Assembly: GCA_016748015.1 (NCBI GenBank)
Contig: JAAOMT010000061.1
Location: 186,001-250,000 of the forward strand
DNA: 64,000 nucleotides
Direction: 5' to 3'
Source: Geosiphon pyriformis
Lineage: Eukaryota; Glomeromycota; Glomeromycetes; Archaeosporales; Geosiphonaceae
In this document: in pieces, positions 1 to 64,000 of the stretch
How the letters are laid out: each line of letters opens with the position of its first letter
Numbering within the stretch: the first letter of the stretch is position 1
Notes under the pieces: generated by a model
What the model was told of the DNA's origin: nothing
Database searches by the model: none
The model's input: the letters and a program-made list of their open reading frames with translations, nothing else
Translations under genes and position numbers: made by a program

Positions 1-434
1 ACAATTTTTTCCTCCGCCATATTAATTGATACATCTGTTCTACCCATTGATCTAAATCCTTGTATTCCTCTCACTGTTATTTTTAATTTTTCCCTCTTTC
101 CCACTAATACTAACTGAGCTACTCTAATCAGAAGCAGGAATATTGCCTGTGTTATCTTTTTGTTGGGCTCTATTATATAGGTCTTTTCGGAGTCATTTTG
201 TAGCATGGCGATGATATTTTTTACATATCCCACGTCAATTATTCCTCTTCTTATATTGATCTTTCTTTTCGCTAAACTACTTCTAGATGCTAATTGAACT
301 ATTGTTGTTGCTAGAATCTCTAGTGCTATTTTCAGATTAATGCAGGTGCATGAATGCAGTTCCAATTTAATGGCATCTTTTTCTGGATATCTTAGATCAA
401 ACTCTGCATCCATATTATGTGCACATTCTGGCAT
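1..434 (-). pseudogene. Pre-reverse-transcriptase segment of Gypsy-1, open at the window edge
   Basis: The minus strand from the ATG at 434 stays open to base 1. It begins MPECAHNMDAEFDLRYPEKD and ends near NMAEEKIV. I associate this wording with the segment directly upstream of the reverse transcriptase in Rhizophagus-type Gypsy elements. It contains a helical stretch (ALEILATTIVQLAS). Truncated by the window. Confidence 0.5.
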
Positions 435-503
435 AATACCTTTACCATTGTCACTATATCATTTCAACTCTTGTTCCTTGAAGAGATCTGGTAGTGCAAT
501 GTA

Positions 504-1474
504 TTATTCATAGTTTAAATTGGGTTTTAAATCTGAGTCTGAATTGTTTTTGTCATCATTGCCATTTTGAATGGAGCTGGAACCAGTGTTTTTATCATCA
601 TTGTCAGAGTCTGGATCGCGATTGATCAGCAATTCTGATTCCGATGCACAGCTGCTAATTGGTTCTTCTTCTTCAGGGATCGAGTAGATCATGCATGGTG
701 GTGGATTGTAAATGAGGTCACAATTGTCACAATATTCAAAGTCACTGGGAATTAAACAATGACGACACAGTTTGGTATTTAACTGTGCTAGCCATTGTTC
801 TTGCTCTTCTCTAGTGGGTGCCAAGTTTTGGTAGTGTTTATGAAACTCTTCTGGTTCTAGAAAATTTATAACTGGCTCTGTGTTCCAGTCAAGCTTGATG
901 GGTTCTGGTGAGTTGTTTTTAATTGTCCAGATTTTTTTTGGCAATGCGTCTTTAATTTTGGCAGTTGCCATTCTCCAAATTTTGTCATCATCATGTGGAC
1001 AACTGTTTAATCATCGCACTGCTCTTTGCCAAGTGGCTTCGATTGGTGTCTCTTTTTTAACCCAGTTGCTGATCAGAATCGTGTATTGACACTCTATATC
1101 ACACGTTCCTCCACGTCCAGGAATGTCATGCCACATTTCTTCATCCAAGAAAGTCTCTCCACAAGCTAAGCATGGCTGATTGTCCCATTTCCCTACTCAT
1201 TTTGGTCTTCCAAAGCATTCAAGGATGTATGAGTGGCAATAGAACTTAGTTGCCGTTGAATATTCCTCATCGTTCCCACAGCATGTGCCCATTGACAACA
1301 ATTTCTTACCACAATCGACGCATATAAGCTTAGGTCGATGATAGGTAGATCATTGTGGTATAGTGTAGGTATTATAAACGGTGGTGGTTTGGGTGGTCTC
1401 TTCTTTTTTCCCTTTTCCTTTATTTTCTTTGTCCTCTTCCCATTCTCAGCTTGAAGTCGGTTTGCTCTTGTCAT
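504..1474 (-). pseudogene. Cys-rich accessory region between protease and reverse transcriptase
   Basis: Several open pieces with CxxC pairs follow the protease. They include ICVDCGKKLLSMGTCCGN, CLACGETFLDEEMW with a later TCDIECQYTI, and LCRHCLIPSDFEYCDNCDLI, ending in an acidic Glu/Asp/Asn-rich tail. In-frame TGA codons at two places are best explained as former CGA. The same Cys pairs are visible in Gypsy-2 (for example CIICEKI at about 50195). Paired CxxC motifs suggest zinc binding; this is not a standard Gypsy domain and I do not know its role. Confidence 0.6.
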
Positions 1475-1815
1475 TTTCGGTCCATGTCAGGTTATCAGTT
1501 TCTCAGATAAGTTCTTCCTTTTGTTTCCTTTTTCTCTTGTTGTTGTCATCCCAGAAGAGTATTGGCAGTAGTTTTTTGTGCTCTTCGTCCACCCACGACA
1601 CTTGGTAGGCTTTTCAGGTAGGTTTTTCAGGTAGGTTTTTCTTTCTTTTCCTCCAGTTCAATCAATAGTTTCTCTCTTGGAGGAGTTTTAAAGTAGCCAC
1701 ACGTGGCCGGAACATGTATGTGTTGGCCCTGATATGTTAGCTGGAGTTCCTGAGTGTTCCAGTTTAACGTTGCATTGACTTTGAATAGCCAGTTATTACC
1801 AATGAGAGCTTGGTA

Positions 1816-2394
1816 TTAAGTGGCTTCTATCACTAGAACTTTAATGGAAGTCACGATACCATTAATTTCAAAAGGAAAGTTATCGATTTCACCGATTGGA
1901 GTTTTGGTCGCTCTATCGGCTGTGATGATTTTGGTGCTGGCAGCTCGATCAACTCGGCGACCTAATTGCTCTATGAGTTGTTTTGTGATTATGCTGCCTG
2001 TGGAACTGCTGTCCAGGATCAATTTGATGGATTGTCTTTCGACTTTGGCATCAGTGTACATCGTGGTGATTGGTTTGGCTTCAAGAGTGGCTCCACTAAA
2101 TAATGGCATTGCAGCTGTTTCCTCAAATTCGAATGGGAAGATAGCGGCCAATGACTCATCTTTAGTGATGATAGCAGGTGGGATATTATTGGTGAGTGGT
2201 TGTTTTTGGATAAATGCCAGGTTATTGGTTGAAGCATTTTCTGGGGTGACTAGGAGACTTAAATAGTTCTGAGAATTCGGGTTCTGGGGTTGACCAGTAC
2301 CCGAATTCTGCTGGTGTGGTCCAGATGGTTGCTGTGAAGAACTGGGGATCAGTTGATAGACTACTATTGCCGATCTCCAGCTCTGTTGAGTCAT
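1816..2394 (-). pseudogene. Retropepsin-like aspartic protease region of Gypsy-1
   Basis: About 190 codons after the zinc knuckle end in a retropepsin-like fold: IKLILDSSSTGSIITKQLI, then an ITADRATKTPIGEI flap-like part and a FEINGIVTSIKVLVIEAT strand. The catalytic triad expected as D-S/T-G reads DSS here, which a single G-to-A change explains; this copy is probably catalytically dead. The segment is followed by a stop or frameshift. The homologous stretch in Gypsy-2 is at about 49375-49560. Confidence 0.7.
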
Positions 2395-2664
2395 TCTCAG
2401 TCTTTGGGTTCTATTGGGTGGTAAGTTTTGGGGCAGTGTTTGGATCTATTGGGGTTGATAAATTATTTGTGGCTGTGGCTGATATATTACTTGTGATTGT
2501 GGCTAATAAATCGGAGGTTGATATACTGGAGACTGATAGACTGATGGCTGCATCACTGGTAGGTAAGCAGATGGGTTTTGATTTGAGTACTGATTTAGAG
2601 TTTGGAACCGGCGATCAGAGTTTCGATATGGATTTCTCAATCATTAGTTATTTAAATGCTGGTG

Positions 2665-3579
2665 ACAGTCAATTTGGATATGTCTTTGTTTACCACAATA
2701 GTGGCAGATATGCATTTCCTGTTGCTACTGTTGATTGGTTGATAAAGATGGACATGGTTGATTTTGGGCATGATTAGAGTTTCTTTGATTATTGCATCAT
2801 TGTGGAGGCTAATAAATGGCATGATTGTCAGCTAAGTATCCTTCCAATCTCTTATTGATTGATTCACTGAACTTCTCCAATTTGGAATCCAATTCAGATG
2901 ATCTGTTCATTACTAGATTAACAGCTTGGGCGTGATTAGCCTCTGACTCAGCAGATTCAAAATCTCTGGCGCATATGACTGCATCTTGAAGAGTGCCTGG
3001 ATGCAATGGACGTACATGTTGCAAGATGCTACTGCGCAGGCCACGGATAAACTGATTGAGTATCTGTGGTGCTGTAAAATAGTTGGCATCAATTGCTTGA
3101 ATTTGGCATAGGTTTCAATGGAAGCATTCTAGGTAAGTGGTGACTGCTTCAGTTTCTCCTTGTTTTATGGTGGTAAATGCATTGACTAGGTGATTGATGC
3201 TGTTATTGTTGCTGAAGTATCTTAAGAATTCTGCTTTGAAGGCATTAAAATCTTGTGGTTTATTAATCAAGCTCTGGTACCATGAATTGGCAGTATCTTT
3301 TAGAAAGTAGGGAATGGCTTGTATTGTTCGAGTGTCATTCCATCCATTGGCTGCGATGGCTTTTTCTACATCATTTAGCCATATTTGAGTGTCATCCTCT
3401 TTACCTGTAAAGTTGTCAAGTTTTGCGATTGGTATGTAGGCCATTGGATCTAAGTTAGGTGGTTGTGGTGACTGTTGAAGCAGTTGTTGTTGTCCTGGCT
3501 GTTGGGGTGGTAGCTGAAGTGGCTGCTGTATGGGTTTGACTATGGAATTAATCGGCAGTTGATCGATGACGATTACCAA
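2665..3579 (-). pseudogene. Gag capsid and CCHC zinc knuckle of Gypsy-1
   Basis: The translation carries a retrotransposon-gag signature: a Gln/Pro-rich leader, then KLDNFTGKEDDTQIWLNDVE, a YFLKDTANSWYQSL helix and a stretch with AFLRYFSN. The region 2809-3024 continues with LQDAVICARDFESAESEAN, typical of the gag C-terminus. A CX2CX4HX4C knuckle (CHYCGKQRHIQIDC) is encoded at 2665-2706. The parts lie in different frames, so the gene is broken. The product would be the structural and nucleic-acid-binding protein of the particle. Confidence 0.8.
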
Positions 3580-3831
3580 AGGTAAGTTTTGCTAATTAAT
3601 TAATTCAGGGTTTTGATTTCTTTGATTTGGTAGTGTTCAAATATTCGGAGTTTCGATTTCTGGATTTTCTAACTGTTGCTGAGTTTGAATGTTCAGGGTT
3701 TTAACTTCCAGGTTTTTAATGATTGGGTGCTGGTAAGTGAATTCTTGATCCTCTGATTCTTCTTTCTCCTTTTCTGATTCTGCTGCTTCCCATGGATCAG
3801 AGATTCTGAAATCTGGTGGAGGCAGTGGTAA

Positions 3832-4428
3832 TCAAAGTCCTGATGGAATTGATAATCGCAAATTAAATCTCTCAAAGTATTCACTATATGGTCCTAACAA
3901 TTCTGTTTTTCTTTGTCTATTTTGGAATGAGAATTGTCCAAATGCTGATGTTACAGTTGATGGAAACGCATCGGTTGATGATATGTTGATGGCACTTCCA
4001 GGTGTATAGTGGTATGATGGGTTACTTGGGGATTCAACTCTGTTTTTCTTCCAAGCAGGTGGCTGTGTTTTTCGGGGTATTACTGCTGGTGTTTGTAATT
4101 TTCCCTTGCTTTTACTAGTGTATGTAATTGGATATCTTTGTTGAGTGTGGTGTTTAATTTCTTTGTTGATCTCAGTGATGATGGATGCAAAATTATGGTT
4201 TGTTGGTAGGTTGGTGTTTTGAATTAATTTCTTATAGAAAGTTTCTCTTGCTGATTCAGTATTTACTGGTGTTCCTAATAAAGAGGAAATTTTTTTGTTA
4301 ACATAGAAATTGAAGACTGATTCAGCAAATATATGATTGTGGTTTAATCCCAAGTATTGACAATAGTGTTGAAATAAGGATTTTGCAAATCCTAAATGGT
4401 TTGCTCCTATAATTTCTGATTCTGCCAC
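3832..4428 (-). pseudogene. N-terminal gag-like ORF of Gypsy-1
   Basis: An open stretch of 198 codons starts MAESEIIGANHLGF just inside the primer-binding site. I recognise this wording from retroelement proteins of Rhizophagus-type fungi. It has a helical N-terminal half and a Ser/Pro-rich C-terminal half (SPSNPSYHYTPGSAINI). It probably continues as one polyprotein into the capsid region at 3579, but the frame is interrupted in between. Its function is unknown; position suggests a gag N-terminal domain. Confidence 0.6.
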
Positions 4429-4470
4429 TTTTGGTTTGGTGTTGTTGGTGCTGGTTCTCTGTAAGATTAT

Positions 4471-4488
4471 ACCTCACAGGGAGCACCA
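4471..4488 (-). promoter_or_regulatory. Primer-binding site of Gypsy-1
   Basis: Two bases inside the LTR the minus strand reads TGGTGCTCCCTGTGAGGT. The opening TGG is complementary to a tRNA CCA end, as expected for tRNA-primed minus-strand synthesis. Which tRNA matches could not be determined by eye. Confidence 0.6.
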
Positions 4489-4490
4489 AA

Positions 4491-5386
4491 TGTTACAGGT
4501 GATTATTTCTGTTATTGTATTGAATAACAAACCTGTAACTTGGTGCTCAAAAGCTACTTTCATAGATAATGTGCGGAAGGTATGGTATCTGAAGGTTTTG
4601 GTTGATCTGAAGGTTTTGTTGTGGAGTTTTTTGTATAATGGACAGAAATTCAGTGGTAATGGTAGTAGTTTTCCTGAAGTTGCAATTATGCCCAATTTCT
4701 TTTTCAGCTTGGCAGCCGGATTTATTCTGGCAGTCGTGCCCTTTTGGTAAGCTATCTGTTAATATATATAATTCTACCCTTATTTCTGGGTCTTTTTCCA
4801 GGCTATCCTTGACATCAATAACTCAGTGCTTAATCTTTTTACTCAATTAGTATACAACAACAAAATCAAAGAAAAAAAAGAAAATAAAAAGAAAAAAAAT
4901 AAAATTAAAGAAAATAAAGAAAATAAGCCAAGACAATTCAGTATGCTAGTATCTCATTAATAGCCGTGATCAAGAGCTATTGTTCCAGCATGGTTAAGTA
5001 TCAATTACTATTAACATAAAGTGTTGATAATGGATAGTGGATTGCGATATGGAATAATTATTTATTTGATGATTGGTTTCTTGGCTAAGGATTTTGTGGT
5101 ATCGATTCTGTCTTTTCTGTTTCTAATACTACTGCTATATATACATAATTGGGATTCCTCAATTCCTCGATTCTTCATAACAGGAATCCTAGAATTCCTG
5201 GAATCTTGCAATTTCTTTGAGAGGAATCCTGGAATTCTGGAATCCTGCAATTCCTCATTGGGGAATTCTGAAATTCCTGGAATCCTGCAATTCCTAAGAG
5301 GAATCTTGGAATTCCACATTTACTATGCTTACTTCTGATTGGCTAATAATTATGCTAATATATTTCCTATATTTCTATGAGTAACA
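4491..5386 (-). repeat. 5' LTR of Gypsy-1 (896 bp)
   Basis: On the minus strand the segment begins TGTTAC and ends GTAACA, a short terminal inverted repeat of the TG...CA type. A primer-binding site follows after two bases. It contains a TATA-like TATATATAG at about 5140 and an A/T-rich homopolymer tract at 4860-4925. The same landmarks appear in order in the Gypsy-2 LTR (46.6-47.5 kb). The bases just outside, from 5387, are LINE A sequence. The second LTR is outside the window, so the boundary rests on the inverted ends and the primer site. Confidence 0.8.
5151..5315. repeat. Cluster of GGAATTCC-type palindromes inside the LTR
   Basis: About a dozen imperfect copies of a short unit (GGAATTCC / GGAATCCTGGAATTC) occur back to back within 165 bp of the U3-like part of the LTR. 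Each copy is close to its own reverse complement. The decayed LTR of Gypsy-2 shows no such cluster, so it may be a local expansion. Function unknown. Confidence 0.75.
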
Positions 5387-6103: not shown

Positions 6104-6775
6104 ATGCTGTCAGGCTTTACAAGCCGAACTTCAGCTGTTCTCCGTATCTACTTAATGAAAGTGGTCCATAAGAAGTTACCAGTTGCTATTCATAAAAGGT
6201 TGTATGATAAATGTTATCCTGGAGTTCTCTGTTTGATGTGTAGTGATGTTGAATTGTTGGATCATGTGTTTACTTGTCAAAGTGAGGCAGCTGTATGTGC
6301 TGATATTTTGTTGGGTGGGACTGCTTTGTGGAAGTTGTTGCTAGTGGGCTGCTCTTCGGCGTCCTCTCCTATGTTACATACTCTGCTTGTTGGTTGTCAT
6401 AATTCAGAGGTGTATATGCGATTGTGTAAAGACTTTGTACTGAGAGAATGAGTTGATAAAGCTACTGCACATTTCATGGATTGAAATCAGGCTGTTTTGG
6501 TGGTGGCTGATTTTGTCTGATGCCTGGCAGAAAAACACCAGTGTGGTTTGTGATTACCCAGAGCTAAGTTTAGAATGGACATGGAATGTTGTGGTTTGGT
6601 TTGTGCTTTGGAAATTCCTGTTGGTTTTTTAGCTGACTCTATTAAACATTTGTCTAGTAGAGTTGTTCGTCTTCTTGGGATTAATGAGACATTTGCCATC
6701 AATTTTGGTTTGCGCAAAACTAGCCTTTTTTTTTCTGGTATTTGTAATAGTATCAAAGTTTATGTAGGTGTGTAG
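6104..6775 (+). pseudogene. C-terminal CCHC-like region of LINE A ORF2
   Basis: Contains LPVAIHKRLYDKCYPGV followed by CLMCSDVELLDHVFTC, a CX2CX7HX4C arrangement found at the C-terminus of many LINE ORF2 proteins. A TGA at about 6450 and further stops split it; the last piece ends SIKVYVGV and a TAG at 6773-6775. The corresponding LINE D segment ends SVHIDV. Confidence 0.7.
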
Positions 6776-6912
6776 TGTTGCCTAGATTGGCCTGAGTGGT
6801 TAGTCACATGTAGTAAATACGTGAGCCACATTTAGTTAGATTCACTTAGCTTGCATCTGTATACTAGATAGTGGTTGGACTGCACTTGTTAAATAGAATA
6901 AATAAAAAAAAA
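6776..6912 (+). repeat. 3' UTR and A-rich tail of LINE A
   Basis: Starts GTGTTGCCTAG and contains TGGCCTGAGTGG, then TCAC...GTGA able to pair as a short hairpin, then GTGGTTGGACTGCAC and an AATAAATAAA tail. The same block ends LINEs B, C and D on the plus strand and the minus-strand remnants at 26.9, 37.5 and 63.9 kb. Confidence 0.85.
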
Positions 6913-26639: not shown

Positions 26640-26930
26640 AATAACCATTTTTTTGACTTGTGAATGTAGTTAAATTTTACAATATTAAAAAATTTGTCTA
26701 AAGTCTTGGCTTTATCAAAAAAATTGTGGTTTTTTTAATAATTTGGATTTATTTTTTAATATATTAGAATTATTTGGTTTTTTAAATATTAATAATGTGT
26801 GATTGGTTTAAATGGCTGAATATATAAAGTAAAACATAAGCCATACTTATTTTTTAGCTTTTTTTTTGTTAATTTATAATAAGTTATAATTAAATTATAC
26901 TTGTTAATACATAATAAAAAAATATTAATA
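26640..26930 (+). mobile_element. LINE 3'-end remnant, plus strand
   Basis: At 26795-26925 the sequence follows the LINE tail in order: ATTGGTTTAAATGGCTG, ATATATAAAGTA, CATAAGCCATACTTAT, then AATTATACTTGTTAATACAT and AATAAAAAAA, matching LINE A with G/C lost. The preceding 150 bp look like decayed ORF2 C-terminus. It marks the right edge of the gene island. Confidence 0.5.
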
Positions 26931-26934
26931 AAAA

Positions 26935-27430
26935 CAAATATTTTTTTATTTAATATATAAGATTTAATTATTATTTAATACAATTTAACAAACTAAGTAT
27001 TTTAAATTAAATATAATTTGTGTGTTTTCTATATGTAACCAAATATAAATTCAATTTAAACTAAATTATATTGAATTTAAAAAAAACCTATTTTAAAAAA
27101 ATATTTTATGCATAAAAACAATTAAAATAAAATAGTATTTTAAAAAAATTAAATCAAGTTTATATTAATAAATATATTTTAACATATTGTTTTATATTAT
27201 ATAATATAAAAACTCTAATTTTTTTTGCTTTTATAAAATATAATTTAATTATTAATTATAACTTAAAATACAAAGATTTTAAATAGTCATAATTTATATT
27301 TTTATTATAATTAATTATTTAAGCTAATTAAACTTATATTATATTTTATTAATTATTATTTTTAATTTATTATTAAGTAAATAATAATCAACAAAATTAG
27401 GAAATTATTTTAAATAAATAATGAAATATT
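26935..27430 (-). mobile_element. LINE 3'-end remnant, minus strand
   Basis: The minus strand at 27060-26945 reads TGGTTACATATAGAAAACAC and then ACTTAGTTTG...AATAATAATTAAA. This is the same tail as LINEs D and C. It lies tail-to-tail with the plus-strand remnant ending at 26930. The body upstream (to about 27430) is too A+T-rich to read and is cut by LINE B. Confidence 0.5.
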
Positions 27431-27562: not shown

Positions 27563-29424
27563 GTGGTAAACCTGACTACTGCTTTAGGTGGTTCTATATC
27601 CAAAAAAAAGGTGTCTATAAGAGTTTTCTATGGTCCTGTTGGGAGTTTTTTTTCTCAAAAAAAAAAGATTTCTGTTGGTAATGTCAAGCATTTAGGTGAT
27701 GAAAAGAACATCTCTTTAGTCAAACCTGGTTTTAGTAGTGGTGTGTATTCAGATATGAACAGCATGTCTGGGAATAGTGGTGATGAAGATGTCTTTTTTG
27801 GTCCTGGTAATAATTTTCTTTTTGGTTTGGCAGCAAACACCCCTAAAACTAAAAGGGTTAATACTGGCATAGTTTATGATTCCCCTCTTGGCTTAATTGA
27901 TTATGGCATAGATAAAGATGATGGGCCCCTTTCTTCTCCTCTTAAAATCTCTCTCGACAAAAAGTAAGTTGATCTAAAAATTATTAAAACTCAAGTTGAA
28001 GTATCTGTAAATAAGTTTTTTGCTCTAAATATCAATCTTAGTGCTGTAAAAGGGAAATCGGCAACAGCTAAGACTCAATTCATTAAGAAAAATTTTTCTT
28101 CAGTCAATGGTTTTGGGGAAGTCATTATTCCCTCAAAATTTGAAAAAATTATTCAATCTATATTTACTTCTAAGAAAAACATAATTAAGACTGTATTATT
28201 GGCCAGTAAAAAAGAAATTAATGTAAACAGCAATCTTAAAAAACAAGAAGTTTATTCAGATCAAGCCATAGTAATCAAAGAATTTCCTATGGACATGCCA
28301 AAAGAGATGATCATTGCTGCAGTATCTGAGTTTGGTAATATTAAGTCAATCAAAATTTAGCTGATTGGATTGTAGCAGAAGACTGTAGTAGAATTCACCA
28401 AATTAGAACAGGCAAAACAACTGGCATCAAGATGGTCATTTCTCATTGGGAAAGACTTAGTACATGTGGCTATGGTCATGAGAGATTGGGATACTTGGAT
28501 ATTTAGAGATCACTTTAGGGTGCTTTTGTTTACCTTGCTGGTGGAAACAACTGCACATAATCTTAGTACTCTTTTAAAAGAGACTGGTAAGAAAACTTGT
28601 GTAATTAACTGTTTTCTAGAAACTGGCAACTGGGTCCACTATGCTATTATTGGTTTTGAATCTGAAAATGAGCTTGAATCTGCATTCTGCACTAAGCCAA
28701 TTTTTGGTGGTGTGAGGCTTTTTTGGACTAGATTGGACTTGGTTCAGTGTAAAAAGTGTGGGAAGTTTGGACACTTAGCTTTGGAATATGATGCCTCTGC
28801 TGCTCTGGAGTTTGTTTCTTCTAGAAAAACTGTTAAAAAAAATACTTCTGATGTGAATTATCTTTAGTTGGCCAAGTTATATGTCAGGAAAAATGTTTCT
28901 ATTTTTCATCCTGCCACTTTTGGTGACAAGTCATGGGCTCAGGTGGTTTTTTCTGCATTTTTTTTGGTAATCTTCTGTTTGAGTCTGGTTTTGGTTCTGG
29001 TTTTTTTTCTTCTGGTATCTCAGATTTGAGTGGTAGCTCTTCTTTTGTCCTGGCTAACAATTTGTCTTTAAATGCTTATTTGACCTCTTTGAAATGTTTC
29101 TTAGAGCTTTTGGGTGATTAAGTTTCTGGCATTATGCACAAACTCAGTGGTATGGAGTTGGTGCCTTTGGCCCTCCTTTCTTCTTCTGGTAGTTTGATTA
29201 CTCCAGTTAACATTAATTTGGATTTAACCTTTGATATGGTTTTGGATAGTTCTGAAACAGTACCTGCATATTTTTCTGTTGTTTCAGCTTTGGAATTCAG
29301 TAGCTTAAAGATTTTGACGACTAAAATGGGATGTTTGGAGTCAAAGTTGGTGGCTCTTGAAGCCTCAATTAGTTCAGTTTTGGCGAAGTTAGATCAGTTG
29401 TGTGCTGGCTCAGGTTCTTAGGTG
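27563..29424 (+). pseudogene. ORF1 of LINE B (RRM-like plus CCHC knuckle)
   Basis: Open pieces at 27563-27967, 28466-28867 and 28933-29421 join by homology to LINE D ORF1. An RRM-like block lies at about 28260-28440 (VIKEFPMDMPKEMIIAAVSE). A knuckle at about 28750 reads CKKCGKFGHLALEYD, where the last Cys has become Tyr (TGT to TAT). TAG stops in the RRM-like block sit where LINE D has Gln and Trp codons. It would be an RNA-binding particle protein. Confidence 0.75.
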
Positions 29425-32523: not shown

Positions 32524-33996
32524 AAAAGGCTGAATTCTAAGAGACTAACTCCTAGTTGGTTTGTCTTTCTTGTAAACTTTATTAGATTTGGTGATTTGGT
32601 TGGTGGCAGCAACTCATTACAACTTTTTTCTTCAAAATTTTACTTATATGATGCTAGTTATATTAGAAATTGTCTAAAATATACAGGTTCTGATATTATA
32701 CATATTTACACTGATAGTTCGATTAGAGATCTTGGCTTCTCTGATACTTGTGATGGCACTGCTGCTTATTTCTCTAGTGCTGACATTGGTATTGGTGTTA
32801 AGATTCTTGGTTTACTGTTTTTCATGCTTGCTAAGATACAAACTATTGCTCTTGCCTTGGACTGTGTCCCTAGTCATAGTTCAGTAATGTTGTTTACTAA
32901 TAGTCAGACTTCGTTGAACCTATGTACAATGGCCTTATAAAGTCCCAAACTGGATTTCAGAAGAAAATACTGGATGGAATGTGAGTATGTTCATGAAACT
33001 ATTTTGTCAAAAAATCTGTTGGTTACCTGGAACAAAGTAAAAGAACACACTGGAATTGTCAGCAATGAGCATGCTGATTTTTTTGCCAGTAAAACTACTG
33101 GTTCTAATTTCATTCTTCCTGTCAAGATGTTACACCACTTTCTTAGCATAGAAGGCAGACCCCTTTTTGGTAATACTTGTCATATAGTCAGAAGACTCTA
33201 TAAGACTGTCAATCTTGTTGGTTGGAAATCCAAGTACGCAAGTGGCATGGTTGATAAATCAATTAGTGGCCTAATAAACAAGCATTGTACTTTCAATGTA
33301 TGGCATGCAGATGGTTAGATTAGGTCTGGTTACACAAGTTCTGCTTTTGTGACACTCCATTTGTATTTTATGTAGGCCTTGTATTATTGGCTGCCTGTGG
33401 CCAAGAGAAAGAGGTTATATAACTTATGTTATTCTAGTGTTTTGTGTATTCAATATAAACTTTTAGAAGATTTGGACTATATATTTGTTTGTGTTTCCAA
33501 TTTTGACATCTGTAAGAACTTAATTTCGGATGCCATCAAGAATTGGATGGTCTTGTTGAGTGCATGTGCCACTTGTAATGTGGTGGTTTACTCATTTCAT
33601 AAGACTGTAGGTTTAGATTATTTGTATATGTCTTTGTCCAAAAGTTTTGTGTTAAAAAAATGGGTGAATGAAGCAAAGAGTTTATTAGAAAATAATGCAA
33701 ATAGTGGATCTTTGGTTGTTAATCTGGTTCATTATTTTGCTGAGGGTCATAGGTCTAGTGTGTGACTGCTGAGAGCCAAACTGAGAGCCCATTATGAGAA
33801 GCATAATCTTTTGCTATACAATAGATTCATTGTCCTATTAGTGTTTGGTTTGTCTTTGATTTGGCCCTGTGACATGATTAATAGTTTTGGCATTAAGCTG
33901 AGTGTACATGTATGTTTTGGTCTTCATCTTCAATTACATAGTGTGCAGTTTGATTTTCTATGTGATTTCTCTATAACTGGTGTTCTTAGTATATAG
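32524..33996 (+). pseudogene. RNase H and C-terminal region of LINE B ORF2
   Basis: RNase H pieces: HIYTDSSIRDLGF (first Asp kept), LAKIQTIALAL (catalytic Glu now Lys), VMLFTNSQTSLN (second Asp now Asn), NEHADFFAS (last Asp kept). A TAA at 32938 and a TAG at 33316 interrupt it. The C-terminal motif reads CIQYKLLEDLDYIFVC, which has lost its second Cys. ORF2 ends at the TAG 33994-33996. Confidence 0.8.
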
Positions 33997-34130
33997 TGTT
34001 ACCTTAACTGGCTCGAGTGACTGGTCATGTGTGGAAAATACATGAGCTACACTTAATATAAAACTTGCTTGGTTTTATGTAATTAGGTAGTGGTTGGACT
34101 GCACTCATTAAACTTAATAAAAAAAAAAAT
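33997..34130 (+). repeat. 3' UTR and tail of LINE B
   Basis: Starts TGTTACCTTAACTGGCTCGA, with TCATGT...ACATGA able to form a 6-bp hairpin, then GTGGTTGGACTGCACTCATT and an A-rich end. Clearly homologous to the LINE A, C and D tails. Confidence 0.85.
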
Positions 34131-34407: not shown

Positions 34408-34429
34408 AAAACTCTGTCTTCTTAATTTT

Positions 34430-36519
34430 ATGATCATAATCAGAGCAAAGACTAAAAAAGCTGCACCTGATATCTGTCCTAAAATATCTAATAAAATTTC
34501 AACCAGAAAAGCTTTCTCTGTTGTAGAAGCAACTAGGCAAAATATTTTAGAAGCCTTTTCTTTACCCAATAATTGTGATAAGCTGCTTTTGGTAACCATT
34601 GAAGCAACTTCTTTATCTTTGGCTGGTTTTTCACCAGTCAAAGTTCCCTTAAAGAGACACACTTAGATTAGTCTCAGTATTGCCTTCACTCCTACTAAGA
34701 GCCCAAAAATGTTTAATAATAGACCAGTTAACAAACTGGTTTTCCCTTCCATGGCTTGTACATTTGGTGCTGCTAGCACCTCTTTTTCAAAAAAAATGGT
34801 CAAAAAGACCAAAAGTTCAGAAAAGTGGAGGCAGTTGCTTGCCTTTGCTATTGTTACACCGAATCCCTTTGTGATTTCCAATAAGATCTTAAATGAAATT
34901 TTTATAGCATCATTCAGCATATTGTTTAAGATAAGCCAAGATCAACCACTGGCTGTGTTGTCAAATATGGTGTCTTCTGGCAGATTATTGTCAGTTTTAG
35001 AAGCAAAGCAATTTCTTTCTATTGGGTCATCTGTTCTTGAGAACTGGACTAATCAAATAGAAACTGAATCTAGTTTCTGGTGCTACTTTTAATGGTGCTT
35101 GAAAAACTATTATTAGTTGTCAAAGATTTGCTGGGTAGATAATCTCTACTCTGGTACTTAGTGCTACTTTTAAGATCAAATTGGCTTATGTTAAGGCTGT
35201 TTTTCAATCAGTACATGGTTTTTTGGATGCAAAGTCAGTGTCAAAAGACAATGTAAAGCTGTTTTGTGTAGAGTTTGCTTCTTAAGTGTCTTTGGAAGCT
35301 ATATTTTTGGTTGAGCTTACAAGCTTTGTACATTTGGCCACCCTCAAAATTGCCAAATCCTTGGTAGTTCCTGAGTCTGACTCTCTTTCTGCTGCTATTG
35401 TGCTGCATAATGTGCCTTTGGGTGTGTTTGCTGCTGATATTAAGACAGTTCTTAGTGTTTTTGATGTAATTACTTGTGTTGTGCTGAAGTCTGCTGGCAT
35501 TTGGCAGTATGCTGTGATCTATTTTGAGAATTTGGTTGCTGTTACATCTGCTCTCAATCACTGGTTAGTTTTGGTGAACAAGGATAGTGTTTGGATTCTT
35601 CTCCTTGTGAATCAACAAGAAACAATTGTGTTTTGTAATAGGTTTAAGACCAAGTTGGTCAACCTTGCTCCTGGCTGTACTGTATTTGAAATTAGTAATA
35701 TAGTTTCTCAAGTTGGTGATCAGTTTTGTTTTATTCCTCAGTTTCCTGATTCTGGTTATGTTTGGCTTTTAAGCTGATTTGGATCTTGCTGTTGTTAAAA
35801 CTGGTACACTAAAAAAGTGTCATATCTAATAGGAAACTCCTGGTTGTCAGCATTGTTTTTAGTATTAAGAAATAGGCCACTTGGCCATAGACTATAAGAT
35901 TGCTCCACCTCCCCTTTCTAAGACTCCCAAGATGTTTAAGCCATATTTTATTGGTTTTTTGTCTTATGCAAAGACATCTGTTCTCCCTGTTTTTTCTGAA
36001 TTTCCTCTTTTGGTGGCTGTTGTTTCTCCTGTTGCTATTGTAGATCCTTTGGTGTTTTCTCAGTTGGCATCTCTGGAATCTGATTTGGCCAAGCTTTCTG
36101 TTTTGGTTGAATCTATTGTTAAGCCTGTTGGCTCTATGGTTAAAGTTTTTGAACAATTTGTTAATGGTAATCTGGTTTCAAGTTTTGCTTTTGGCCTCAG
36201 AGTTAACGAAGTTTTGGTTTACATAAGTATCTTTAGTAGAGCTGTTGGTAAGTTGGAGTGAGAAGTGGTCACTCTGAAAACTGAGTATGGTTTTGAGGAC
36301 ATTGATATGTTTGGTTTTCATGTAAGTTTGTCATCTTTTAATAATGATATGTTTTCTAATTTAATGTCTTTTTGGGAACATAAATCTGCTGTTATAAAGG
36401 CTGATGTCTTTAACACAGCTAAGTAGTTGGTTAGATTGGTTAATAATAGTGCTATATTATTTGAGATTGTTCAAAAAATGTTTTCTTTGGATAAGTTTTC
36501 TTCTGATGCATCAATGTAG
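34430..36519 (+). pseudogene. ORF1-like protein of LINE C
   Basis: Open pieces at 34430-34666, 34709-35092, 35286-35777 and 35881-36261 run in order. The middle shows two adjacent strand/helix modules (AAIVLHNVPLGVFAADIKTV... and ETIVFCNRFKTKLVNLAPGC) that look like tandem RRM-like folds. A knuckle near 35840-35880 reads FxYxEIGHLAIDY, a CCHC motif whose outer Cys are now Tyr. The 34667 TAG replaces a Trp codon by one G-to-A change. It ends at the TAG 36517-36519. The wording resembles a repeat-borne protein I associate with Gigaspora/Rhizophagus genomes. Confidence 0.65.
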
Positions 36520-36655
36520 TATAGCCTGAACTGGTTCAAGTAACTGGTTATATATAGTAAGTATATGAACCATATTTAGTCTTGAATCTCTTAGTTTGGT
36601 TCTAATTTCTAAATAATAGTTGGGCCATACTCATTAAACTTATAATAATAATAAA
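36520..36655 (+). repeat. 3' UTR and tail of LINE C
   Basis: Reads TATAGCCTGAACTGGTTCAA, then TTATAT...ATATGA, then TAGTTGGGCCATACTCATTA and (ATA)n. It matches the tails of LINEs A, B and D position by position. Confidence 0.85.
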
Positions 36656-51909: not shown

Positions 51910-53873
51910 TAACTTACCTTTATTTGTTGTAATAGAACTGGTGGGCTCATCTGCTGGTGGTTCTGGTTTGGGTTCAGCTGGTTTGGAGACCTGTCAGAGT
52001 GCTAAAAACAAGCATGTTGATATGGTCTACACCCATGGTGCATTCTACAAAAAGCCTAAAAAGCCTACAGCTAGCGTTTTGGTTAAGTCGTCTGCTAGTC
52101 CTCTATATTTGGAAGACTTGGGTGGTGACAATGATAAGCTGGCAGCATTCTGGGAAGCAGAGTGGGTAGTGTTCTGGCAGTGTAAGTGGTCTTTCGGATG
52201 TCAAGAATTTGGAGAACTTAGTTGCCAAAGAGACAAGCTACATTAATTCAGGTAAGGACGACGAAATGGATGAGACTACATCACGTAGGACTCGCATTCG
52301 GACGTATGTGTTGGAACAACCTCTTAAGGTGCTTCTATTTGCTACTATGAACAATGATGACAATGATTCCATGTTGCCGCCTTCTAAAATCAATGGGCCC
52401 AATCAGCTGCCTTCTTCTAAATCACGTGTTCTCGAGAGTTGTAGTTTCAAGCCAGTGAAATTGTTTGCTCTAGATGTGAATTTGTCAGCTGTTCCTGGCA
52501 GGACTAATAGTAATAAGCTTATTTCAATCAAAAAAATTTTTTACAAAATTGATGGTTTTGGAGAAGCTTCAACTCCCTCAAAATTTCTTGGTGTTATTTA
52601 TTCGACTTTCACAAGTGAGTCTAGTTTGATTAAGGCCAGAAAAATGGCAGTCTGTGAGAAAATTGTTGTAAATGGTGATCTCAAAAAAGCAAACATTCAT
52701 TCAAATTAGGAAGTGGTTATTAAGGAGATCCCAATGGATCTTCCAAAGCTGGCTGTGGAATCAGTTTTTTCTAAATTTGGTAAGATCATTTCCATCAGAA
52801 TGCAATTGATTGGTCTTTGGCAAAAAACCTGGATTGAATTTGAGTTATCAGAAGTTGCCAGTTTGGTCACTTCTAAGTGGTCTGTTCTTATGGGAAAGGA
52901 TTCAGTTTGTGTAGCACTGGCCGTTAGTGATAAACAAACATGGATATCTAGGGATCAACATTGAGCTATGCTTTATACTTTGCCTGTGAGTACTTCTGCT
53001 CATGATTTGTCTGATTTATTGATGTTATATGGTGGAAAGACTTGTTTCATTGGCTGCAATCCCAGTTCATATGTCTGCAATCAATGTGTAATCATTTGTT
53101 TTGAAAATGAGGCTGCCAGATTGGTTGCTGTTAGTACTATTCCAATTTTTAAGGGTGTTAGTTTGCATTGGGCTAATCTTGTTTTGGCTAGTTGTGCCAA
53201 GTGTGAACAATTTGGTCATATCACTGTCAACTGTTCTGTGGGTAGAAGTTCTGGTATTCATGGGAAGAGAGTGGTTTCTGATCATGATCGGGTTTGCCTG
53301 GCTGGTATATATAAGAAAAAATCGGCTTGTATTGCCTGTCCAGTTTTGTTTGGTGGCAAGACATGGGCTTAAGTTGTTAGTGGCACCCCCTTCCATGCGT
53401 TTCTTTCTGGTTTTTCTGATTCTGGTTTGCATTCTGGTTTAGTTCCTCCTTCAGCAGTCTTTGATCCTTTTGTTGTTTCTCATTTGGGTGATCATTTGGC
53501 GGTTTTGGAGTGCTCTTTGGAGCTTTTGGCTGACTGTGTTTCTGGCATCTTGGTTAGGTTGAATTCTTTTGGTATGGTTTCTTCAGTTCCTTCTTTTTTG
53601 GTCTCCTTTCCTGTTGCTTCTGCAGCTTTGGGTTCTGAAGTGGATTCAAATATGATTGTGGACAATGCTTCAGGTTTTCTTAATATTACCTCCCCTGTCA
53701 CTGATAATGCTGTTGTCGATCTCAGCACTAGTAGTTTCAAGGTTCTTACTGCCAAGGTGGGCAGTTTGGAGACAAAATTGGTCACTTTGGAAGCTTCAGT
53801 TGGTTCAGTTTTGAATAAGTTGAATTTTCTGTGCTCTAGTTTGGGTTTGTTAGCTCCCACAGTTTCTCAATGA
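51910..53873 (+). pseudogene. ORF1 of LINE D
   Basis: N-terminal part from about 51941 (GSSAGGSGLGSAGLETC), a frameshift near 52200, then a Ser/Asp-rich linker. An RRM-like block starts at 52713 (VVIKEIPMDLPKLAVESVFS with IEFELSEVASLVTSKWSVL). A second domain (AHDLSDLLMLYGGKTCFIG) precedes the intact knuckle CAKCEQFGHITVNC at about 53200. After the knuckle comes a helical region with a heptad-like stretch (FKVLTAKVGSLETKLVTLEA). In-frame stops at 52707-52709, 52962-52964 and 53370-53372. The product would package the LINE RNA. Confidence 0.8.
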
Positions 53874-57888: not shown

Positions 57889-58557
57889 TTGGCCTTCGGT
57901 TTTACCAGCATGCGCACAGCAAGCTGTCACACTTACTTTATGAAGGCTTTCCATCATTGGCTTCCTGTTGCTGTGTGCAAGCATTTATATGATAGGAAAT
58001 ACCCCAGTGTAATTTATTTGTTCTGTGGTGATGTTGAGATCTCAGATCACATTTTTTCGTGTTCTCAGGATGCCGCAGGCCATGCTCGTTTGTTGGACAC
58101 TTATGCTTCAGCTTGGGGGGCCCTTTCTGGTCTATCTCGCTTTTCTTTATGTGTTTTACAGGTATTGGCTTCTTGTATTTCCAAGGTTGGAATTGGTGTT
58201 GCTTTGTGTAAGGGCTTTGTTTTCAATGACTGGTTTCAGGAGTCTGTCTCGGTTTTTAAAAATTCTAAGGAAGATACTAAAAAGATTGTGGGCTTTGTGT
58301 GTGGGTTTTGTCTTGCATTTTGGAATGATATCTGGTTGGTCCATGCCAAACACTGGGCATTTATGGAGAGGCATGGTTTGATCCCACGTAATGGGTCCGT
58401 TCTCATGTTAATTTTTGGTTTGCCTGTGGCATTTTTGGCTGGTGTGATTAGGCTGTTGAGTATTGCTAAAGCTTTTGGAGTTAGTTTCGGATTTTGCAAG
58501 CTTTGTTTGTTTTTTTTGGGTATTAGGAACACAGTCTCTGTACATATAGATGTGTAG
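57889..58557 (+). pseudogene. C-terminal CCHC-like region of LINE D ORF2
   Basis: LPVAVCKHLYDRKYPSV is followed by YLFCGDVEISDHIFSC. The CX2C of LINE A (CLMC) reads LFC here, so the first Cys is lost. It continues to the natural ORF2 end VSVHIDV and the TAG at 58555-58557. Confidence 0.75.
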
Positions 58558-58690
58558 TGTTGTCCTAACTGGCCTGAGTGGCTGGTTACATATAGAAAGT
58601 ACATGATTCACACCTAGTTTAGATCATTTGTATGATGTATAGTGCTAGGTAACATTTGGATCTCACTCATAAAATAATAATAATAAAAAA
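58558..58690 (+). repeat. 3' UTR and tail of LINE D
   Basis: Begins TGTTGTCCTAACTGGCCTGA, contains GTTACATATAGAAAGTACAT, and ends with (AAT)n and a short A run before the target duplication. Confidence 0.88.
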
Positions 58691-63920: not shown

Positions 63921-64000
63921 GTTTTTTTTATTAAAATTTAATAAGCATAGTCTAATTATTATTTAGAAATTAGAAACAAACTAAGTATTCTAAGACTAAA
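63921..64000 (-). mobile_element. LINE 3' tail entering from the right edge
   Basis: The minus strand from base 64000 reads TTTAGTCTTAGAATACTTAG, TTTCTAATTTCTAAATAATA, ATTAGACTATGCTTATTAAA. This matches the LINE C tail almost base for base with extra C-to-T and G-to-A changes. The body of this LINE lies beyond the window. Confidence 0.7.

Follow-up and report, generated by a model that had tools for sequence, protein, structure and literature searches.

An ORF1-only LINE derivative which ends in the 3' tail of ORF2-bearing LINEs: a possible half-LINE

LINE C, a 2,248-base repeat in a stretch of 64,000 nucleotides of DNA (the window), consists of an ORF1 relic with a 3' tail directly after it. 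This layout raises the question whether it is the damaged remnant of one LINE or belongs to a family which spreads with ORF1 alone. An earlier note on this DNA took the second position and compared the element with the HAL1-type half-LINEs of mammals. The comparison was supported by the ORF1-only layout, the copy number, the target duplications of the copies taken as a set and the tail common with ORF2-bearing LINE groups. LINE C is very probably a member of a large ORF1-only (half-LINE) retrotransposon family, mobilised, to judge from its anatomy, by ORF2 in trans. The features of the window are as follows.

34408 to 36655, + strand: ORF1-only LINE-like element of subfamily T1, decayed (41 genome matches including its own; 5' and 3' ends fixed, flanks different)
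34412 to 36516, + strand: degraded ORF1 with at least two frameshifts and stops (tblastn with the subfamily majority protein, a majority open frame of 713 aa)
35070 to 35759, + strand: ORF1 region with RRM-like modules (aligned to majority aa 224-453; RRM_1 above cut-off in the relatives L094 and L093)
35854 to 35895, + strand: CCHC zinc knuckle remnant, degraded here (placed by eye; zf-CCHC above cut-off in the relatives L026 and L094)
36517 to 36638, + strand: 3' tail RNA module with an outer stem and three hairpins, then an A-rich end (cmsearch with model R1, E 3.7e-22; pair counts)
33994 to 34112, + strand: homologous tail module ending LINE B, which bears ORF2 (cmsearch, E 3.7e-27)
58555 to 58674, + strand: homologous tail module ending LINE D, which bears ORF2 (cmsearch, E 6.9e-28)
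6773 to 6893, + strand: homologous tail module ending LINE A, with an RNase H-like remnant upstream (cmsearch, E 8.8e-26)
63922 to 64000, - strand: tail of a further T1-like copy, truncated by the window end (82.7% over 81 nt; cmsearch, E 0.015 for the cut piece)

The majority ORF1 of T1 was aligned to the window copy by tblastn in three pieces with shifted frames (34412-35074, 35070-35759 and 35752-36516), and the tail occupies 36517-36638, which confirms that ORF1 leads into the tail without ORF2 at this locus. The longest listed frame of the copy is 163 aa, and no Pfam domain was found in this fragment. The 26 aligned copies of the family are 2,248-2,315 bases long and their ORF1, when whole, has about 710 codons. 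The majority sequences of T1, T4 and T5 possess a single open frame of 712-717 codons, and that of T2, a group with several tail types in it, stays open over 496 codons. T6 is the youngest group, with a mean pairwise identity of 91.5% (89.5-94.1%) and a majority frame of 714 codons. ORF1 is uninterrupted in three of the eight T6 copies (L093, with a small in-frame loss, L094 and L095).

The RRM-like and CCHC modules proposed from the letters of the window copy were recovered in the younger relative L094, where both RRM_1 (3.2e-6) and zf-CCHC (5.2e-5) were above the Pfam cut-offs. L093 showed RRM_1 (7.4e-7) alone above its cut-off, L026 showed zf-CCHC above its cut-off, and in L095 both domains were just below. 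The AlphaFold model of the uninterrupted L094 ORF1 had a mean pLDDT of 35.5; residues 325-395 show a strand and helix order like that of an RRM at a pLDDT of roughly 60-68. A sequence search of the PDB gave two matches, 1whx (E 0.0062, residues 320-375), which we take to be an RRM structure, and 4zc3 (E 0.47). LINEs B, D, A2 and B2 were found to have ORF1s homologous to that of LINE C (best E 6e-29), and homologous pieces lie in the window itself, in LINE B at 28265-28912 (E 5e-23) and in LINE D at 52491-53570 (E 2e-26). The earlier view that LINE C has a different type of ORF1 therefore holds for its divergence, the core being about 25-34% identical to the LINE ORF1 cores; an unrelated ORF1 type is rejected by the homology to LINE B and LINE D.

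To see how far this layout extends, the genome was searched with different parts of the element. With up to 3 mismatches allowed, a 28-nt pattern taken from the 5' end was found at 377 places (198 forward, 179 reverse), and its reversed control at 0. The window copy gave 41 matches including its own, with the best 40 of 1738 first-look candidates scored; 11 others were full or nearly full length with 82-86% identity. Multiple copies with the same ORF1-tail junction, for which a search had been proposed, were thus found. ORF1 continues straight into the tail in all 72 copies read, of which 35 were fetched for the 3' 1-1.9 kb only. These copies comprise 29 (the window copy included), 20, 10 and 8, and 5 of 8 further loci, the other 3 of which are ORF2-bearing LINEs outside the 72. 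The earlier note had also considered that all relatives might carry ORF2 in between, and this was the case in 0 of the 72. The family thus encodes ORF1 without ORF2, as a half-LINE does, and is multicopy with fixed ends (377 five-prime ends; 26 copies aligned).

Ten T1-tail and ten T2-tail matches outside the window-copy search list, as well as ten T4/T5-tail matches, were read upstream and all were ORF1-only. Of eight weak T2-tail matches, five belonged to ORF1-only copies and three stand at the end of a sense ORF2 (group E); the eight weaker matches to the LINE A and LINE B tails all stand at the end of a sense ORF2 (groups A2 and B2). Pieces of ORF2 near some copies are separate from them: they lie antisense and upstream in L051 and L056, and a sense ORF2 remnant about 370 nt past the tail of L093 is not part of the element. 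Four of the ten loci of one batch (L050, L051, L056 and L057) are distant relatives recognised mainly at the protein level. They show about 24-53% amino acid identity in pieces and have T4-like tails with no ORF2 between, hinting that ORF1-only elements extend beyond LINE C. Some loci have arrangements of their own. In L014, at 201-4773, an ORF1-only copy of one type is followed in tandem by a copy of another; ATTAACCAG precedes each of the two and ATTAACCA follows the second. L028, turned to the sense strand, contains at 607-1750 a copy with a further internal deletion, from about 624 to about 1745 of the element, which is the RRM and CCHC part. The LINE load of the whole genome is very large, with 6064 first-look candidates for one RT query by a rough count.

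The strongest alternative to the half-LINE family is that a master LINE with a C-type ORF1 and an ORF2 still exists, and that ORF1-only copies arise from it repeatedly, either because ORF2 is lost or because a transcript carries ORF1 alone. No such LINE was seen among the 72 copies or in the genome searches, which scored the best candidates only, and a rare full-length master could be hidden behind the best 40 of 1738. The spacing between ORF1 and tail is informative here. An ORF1-end match lies exactly 40 nt upstream in 37 of 40 T6-tail matches, so independent deletions are hardly the source of these copies; for the T4/T5 tails it lies 47-65 nt upstream in 25 of 40. Subfamilies diverge strongly in their C-terminal parts and tails but little in the N-terminal part, a pattern which could result from separate losses in different parents. 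Against this, in a tree of a 277-residue core the ORF1s of seven ORF2-bearing LINEs formed one group (support 1.0), separated by a long branch from the C ORF1s compared. Taken together, a master LINE is unlikely. The tree includes a small sample of seven LINE ORF1s and not L050, and the position of L057 in it is unreliable because this copy is broken and partial. The T6 core is 27-34% identical to the seven LINE ORF1s and 36% to L057, a distant ORF1-only relative. The core tree suggests that the ORF1-only state may be old. L047 and L048 have D-type RTs, yet the tree places the ORF1 of L048 beside that of L092, a B2 LINE (0.96), and the ORF1 of L047 with A2 LINEs; ORF1 may thus have been exchanged among full LINEs too.

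For the half-LINE family, the tail would be the link to its helpers. It is structured, about 120 nt long and A-rich at its end. The covariance model R1 was built from 19 LINE tails outside the window, with no C copy among them. ORF2 was read upstream of 11 of these tails, 2 match the end of the LINE D ORF2, and the other 6 (L070-L072, L076-L078) were placed with LINE A or B solely on a tail identity of 86-95%. R1 finds the tails of LINEs A, B, C and D in the window (E 3.7e-22 to 6.9e-28), in agreement with the earlier observation of a common tail. It also finds the tail in 31 of 31 ORF1-only loci with E 1.9e-23 to 2.6e-12; the best match in the table of these loci (6.2e-25, L094) is a neighbouring reversed tail of LINE type and was excluded. 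Two weak tail-like matches in the window, at 26790-26908 (+) and 26949-27068 (-) with E 5e-5 and 7e-4, are perhaps old tails. The set of 92 tails was drawn up after two weak tail-like stretches of the window had been removed.

From this set the first two to five tails per type, 45 in total (24 C, 21 LINE), were aligned for the fold. An outer stem and three hairpins are paired in 91.5% of cells, compared with 31.7-37.0% after sliding the partners by 1-3 columns. Covariation scores 0.410 (0.077-0.166 slid, 0.324 shuffled), and 105 cells are changed on both sides against 44.7 shuffled. Two of the five shuffle measures are at chance level in this alignment, namely pairs changed on both sides (13 against 12.5; 255 of 500 shuffles) and further pair types (46 against 44.3; 103 of 500). 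LINE tails alone fold to 33 pairs and C tails alone to 29, with 27 in common, and 87.5% of cells in the C tails agree with the fold obtained from LINE tails (33-40% slid). A conserved 3' RNA structure common to LINE and partner, one feature of stringent-type tail systems, is therefore present. The drawing of the tail is cloverleaf-like, yet it fits no tRNA or Rfam family: Rfam gave five matches for the window tail, each far below the gathering score, and none for the L048 tail, and ARAGORN reported 0 tRNA genes in L048 7500-8101, the one tail given to it.

At least six tail types are present in the ORF1-only family. Their majorities are 57-71% identical between types (T4/T5 88%), and those of the LINE groups are 66-72% identical between groups (A/A2 85%, B/B2 86%). 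The T2 type is closest to LINEs, with 80-83% identity between the T2 and D majorities and a mean of 76.1% between single T2 and D tails. The tails of the ORF2-bearing loci L104, L106 and L108 (group E) are on average 81.0% (73.8-88.8) identical to T2, and identity within T2 is 85.4%. The nearest LINE tail to T1 is that of A2 (72-73%), and T4, T5 and T6 reach 63-68% with their best LINE majority (63, 65 and 66% in one comparison, in which T1 reached 72%); no close ORF2-bearing partner tail was found for T1, T4, T5 or T6. The 3' end is thus common with autonomous LINEs, closely for T2 and more distantly for the other four. In L048 a frame of 1,521 aa is open and contains RVT_1 (4.1e-17), RNase H (1.8e-6) and an endonuclease below cut-off; its ORF1 is interrupted. 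This locus provides a case, at the level of sequence, that putative helper-type genes persist.

It could be argued that the tails are alike through AT-rich composition or convergence and that the element was moved by an unrelated machinery. Single C tails have a mean raw identity of only about 57-66% to LINE tails outside the T2-D pair, in the pairs computed, which would fit such a view. The recovery of all 31 C loci by a model of LINE tails, the fold which C tails keep from LINE tails alone and the 76% and 81% identity of T2 tails to those of D and E LINEs speak against it, and we consider it very unlikely.

The tails are joined to ORF1 in more than one combination. Over the first 1,400 nt, single copies are 77-89% identical across types, and over the last part of ORF1 and the tail the identity between types is about 52-78%. 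L038 and L045 possess a T4-like ORF1 joined to a T2 tail, and 6 of 41 T2-tail matches, these two included, lie just after a T4/T5-like ORF1 end. This points to a putative exchange of the 3' module between subfamilies, the direction and mechanism of which we infer.

The insertions carry the marks of target-primed reverse transcription. Both the 5' and 3' ends are fixed, flanks differ between copies, and for several copies the match begins at an internal point of the element (L012, L013, L015, L031-L033, L035, L044). In gapped matching the flanks of 34 copies scored 11.69 on average, permuted pairings averaged 9.32 (sd 0.32), and 0 of 5000 permutations reached the observed value; 21 of the 34 copies scored 11 or more, compared with 21.7% of mismatched pairs. 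A weaker signal was obtained without gaps (score of 10 or more in 14 of 26 copies against 35% of mismatched pairs). In both tests the flanks are very AT-rich and the ends of some old copies are poorly set. Clear target duplications are AAGTTAATTTT (L094), ATTTTGAAAG (L099) and ATATTAGATAA (L004). The target duplications which the earlier note had asked for were hence found in the set of 34 copies, together with the A-rich 3' end, and no convincing one was found for the window copy itself by gapped or ungapped flank matching. That one LINE lost an internal part once and was afterwards multiplied by genome rearrangement alone would suit the broken and old window copy, but this can practically be dismissed in view of the 41 genome matches, the 377 five-prime ends, the fixed ends with different flanks, the target duplications of the set and a young subfamily with open ORF1 in three of eight copies.

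Selection on ORF1 was analyzed by dN/dS. Between subfamily majorities it is 0.20-0.33 in 456 N-terminal codons and 0.28-0.92 in the C-terminal part, and it is 0.43-0.75 for single copies against their own majority and 0.69 for T6 pairs. Third codon positions hold most of the T1-T5 differences (33, 25 and 79 at positions 1, 2 and 3). As the values were obtained by NG86 under a strong transition bias, only their contrast is used, and the signal could be partly bias, given the values below 1 of copies against their own majority, of the C-terminal part and of T6 pairs. ORF1 seems to have been kept under purifying selection while the subfamilies diverged, so that its protein probably matters for the element's own spread. 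Differences between copies are almost all transitions (2909 of 3128 in the T1 set L001-L011 and L014b; 885 of 923 in T6, L093-L100), with C>T and G>A as the prevailing changes on either strand and, in T1, with every C context affected. This excess resembles the effect of RIP or of heavy decay of methylated C.

The enzymes of other LINEs appear to copy the ORF1-only elements, since both end in the same folded RNA tail. In the proposed mechanism, the RNA of the half-LINE would be translated into ORF1p, which would coat the RNA it came from. A helper LINE would then supply the ORF2 protein to recognise the folded tail, nick AT-rich DNA and copy the RNA in trans. It is plausible, if short of probable, that the ORF1-only lineage persisted and diversified on its own, with selection on the N-terminal RNA-binding half and exchange of the ORF1 C-terminus and the 3' recognition module, thereby moving between helper LINE groups. 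If true, the element would be a coding parasite which swaps its replication tag. The half-LINE way of life is met here around another ORF1 and among LINEs with structured tails, in hundreds of copies of which some are young with open ORF1. With helpers and parasite having one tail fold in many natural variants, the genome is a ready set of LINE-tail pairs, useful for testing how ORF2 proteins recognise RNA and whether ORF1p alone pays for the upkeep of the element.

Half-LINEs are known chiefly as mammalian L1 derivatives. A literature search limited to open-licence papers gave no ORF1-only LINE of a fungus among the matches listed, and in a paper on transposable elements of Rhizophagus irregularis the term 'ORF1' occurs 0 times in the main text (PMC11075540). 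The mammalian HAL1 (half-L1) has only ORF1 and relies on the ORF2 of full-length LINEs, according to PMC5322556. LINE C resembles it in its ORF1-only layout, A-rich 3' end, target duplications and many copies, with a dependence on LINE ORF2 which we infer. It differs in its genome, non-mammalian to judge by its elements, and in an ORF1 which encodes about 710 aa, includes RRM and CCHC modules and is homologous to those of local LINEs; for this last reason it is not filed as HAL1 proper. Apart from poly(A), mammalian L1 makes no strict demand on its 3' end (PMC4176376), whereas the LINE C tail is a conserved multi-hairpin RNA common to several LINE groups. Different subfamilies of LINE C bear different tails, a further difference from HAL1.

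In tail fold, UnaL2 and ZfL2 have a single stem-loop, while the LINE C tail has an outer stem and three hairpins. These stringent-type LINEs and their partner SINEs have a common structured 3' tail, as stated in PMC4176376. LINE C is similar in that a nonautonomous element ends in the kind of structured tail of its partner LINE, and differs in that the nonautonomous partner encodes an ORF1 protein. Also close are the local ORF1-ORF2 LINEs (A, A2, B, B2, D and E, no ORF1 having been seen in groups A and E), with which LINE C has a homologous ORF1 core and a homologous tail. It is set apart from them by copies without ORF2 and by an ORF1 core which has only about 25-34% identity with the cores of the seven LINEs examined.
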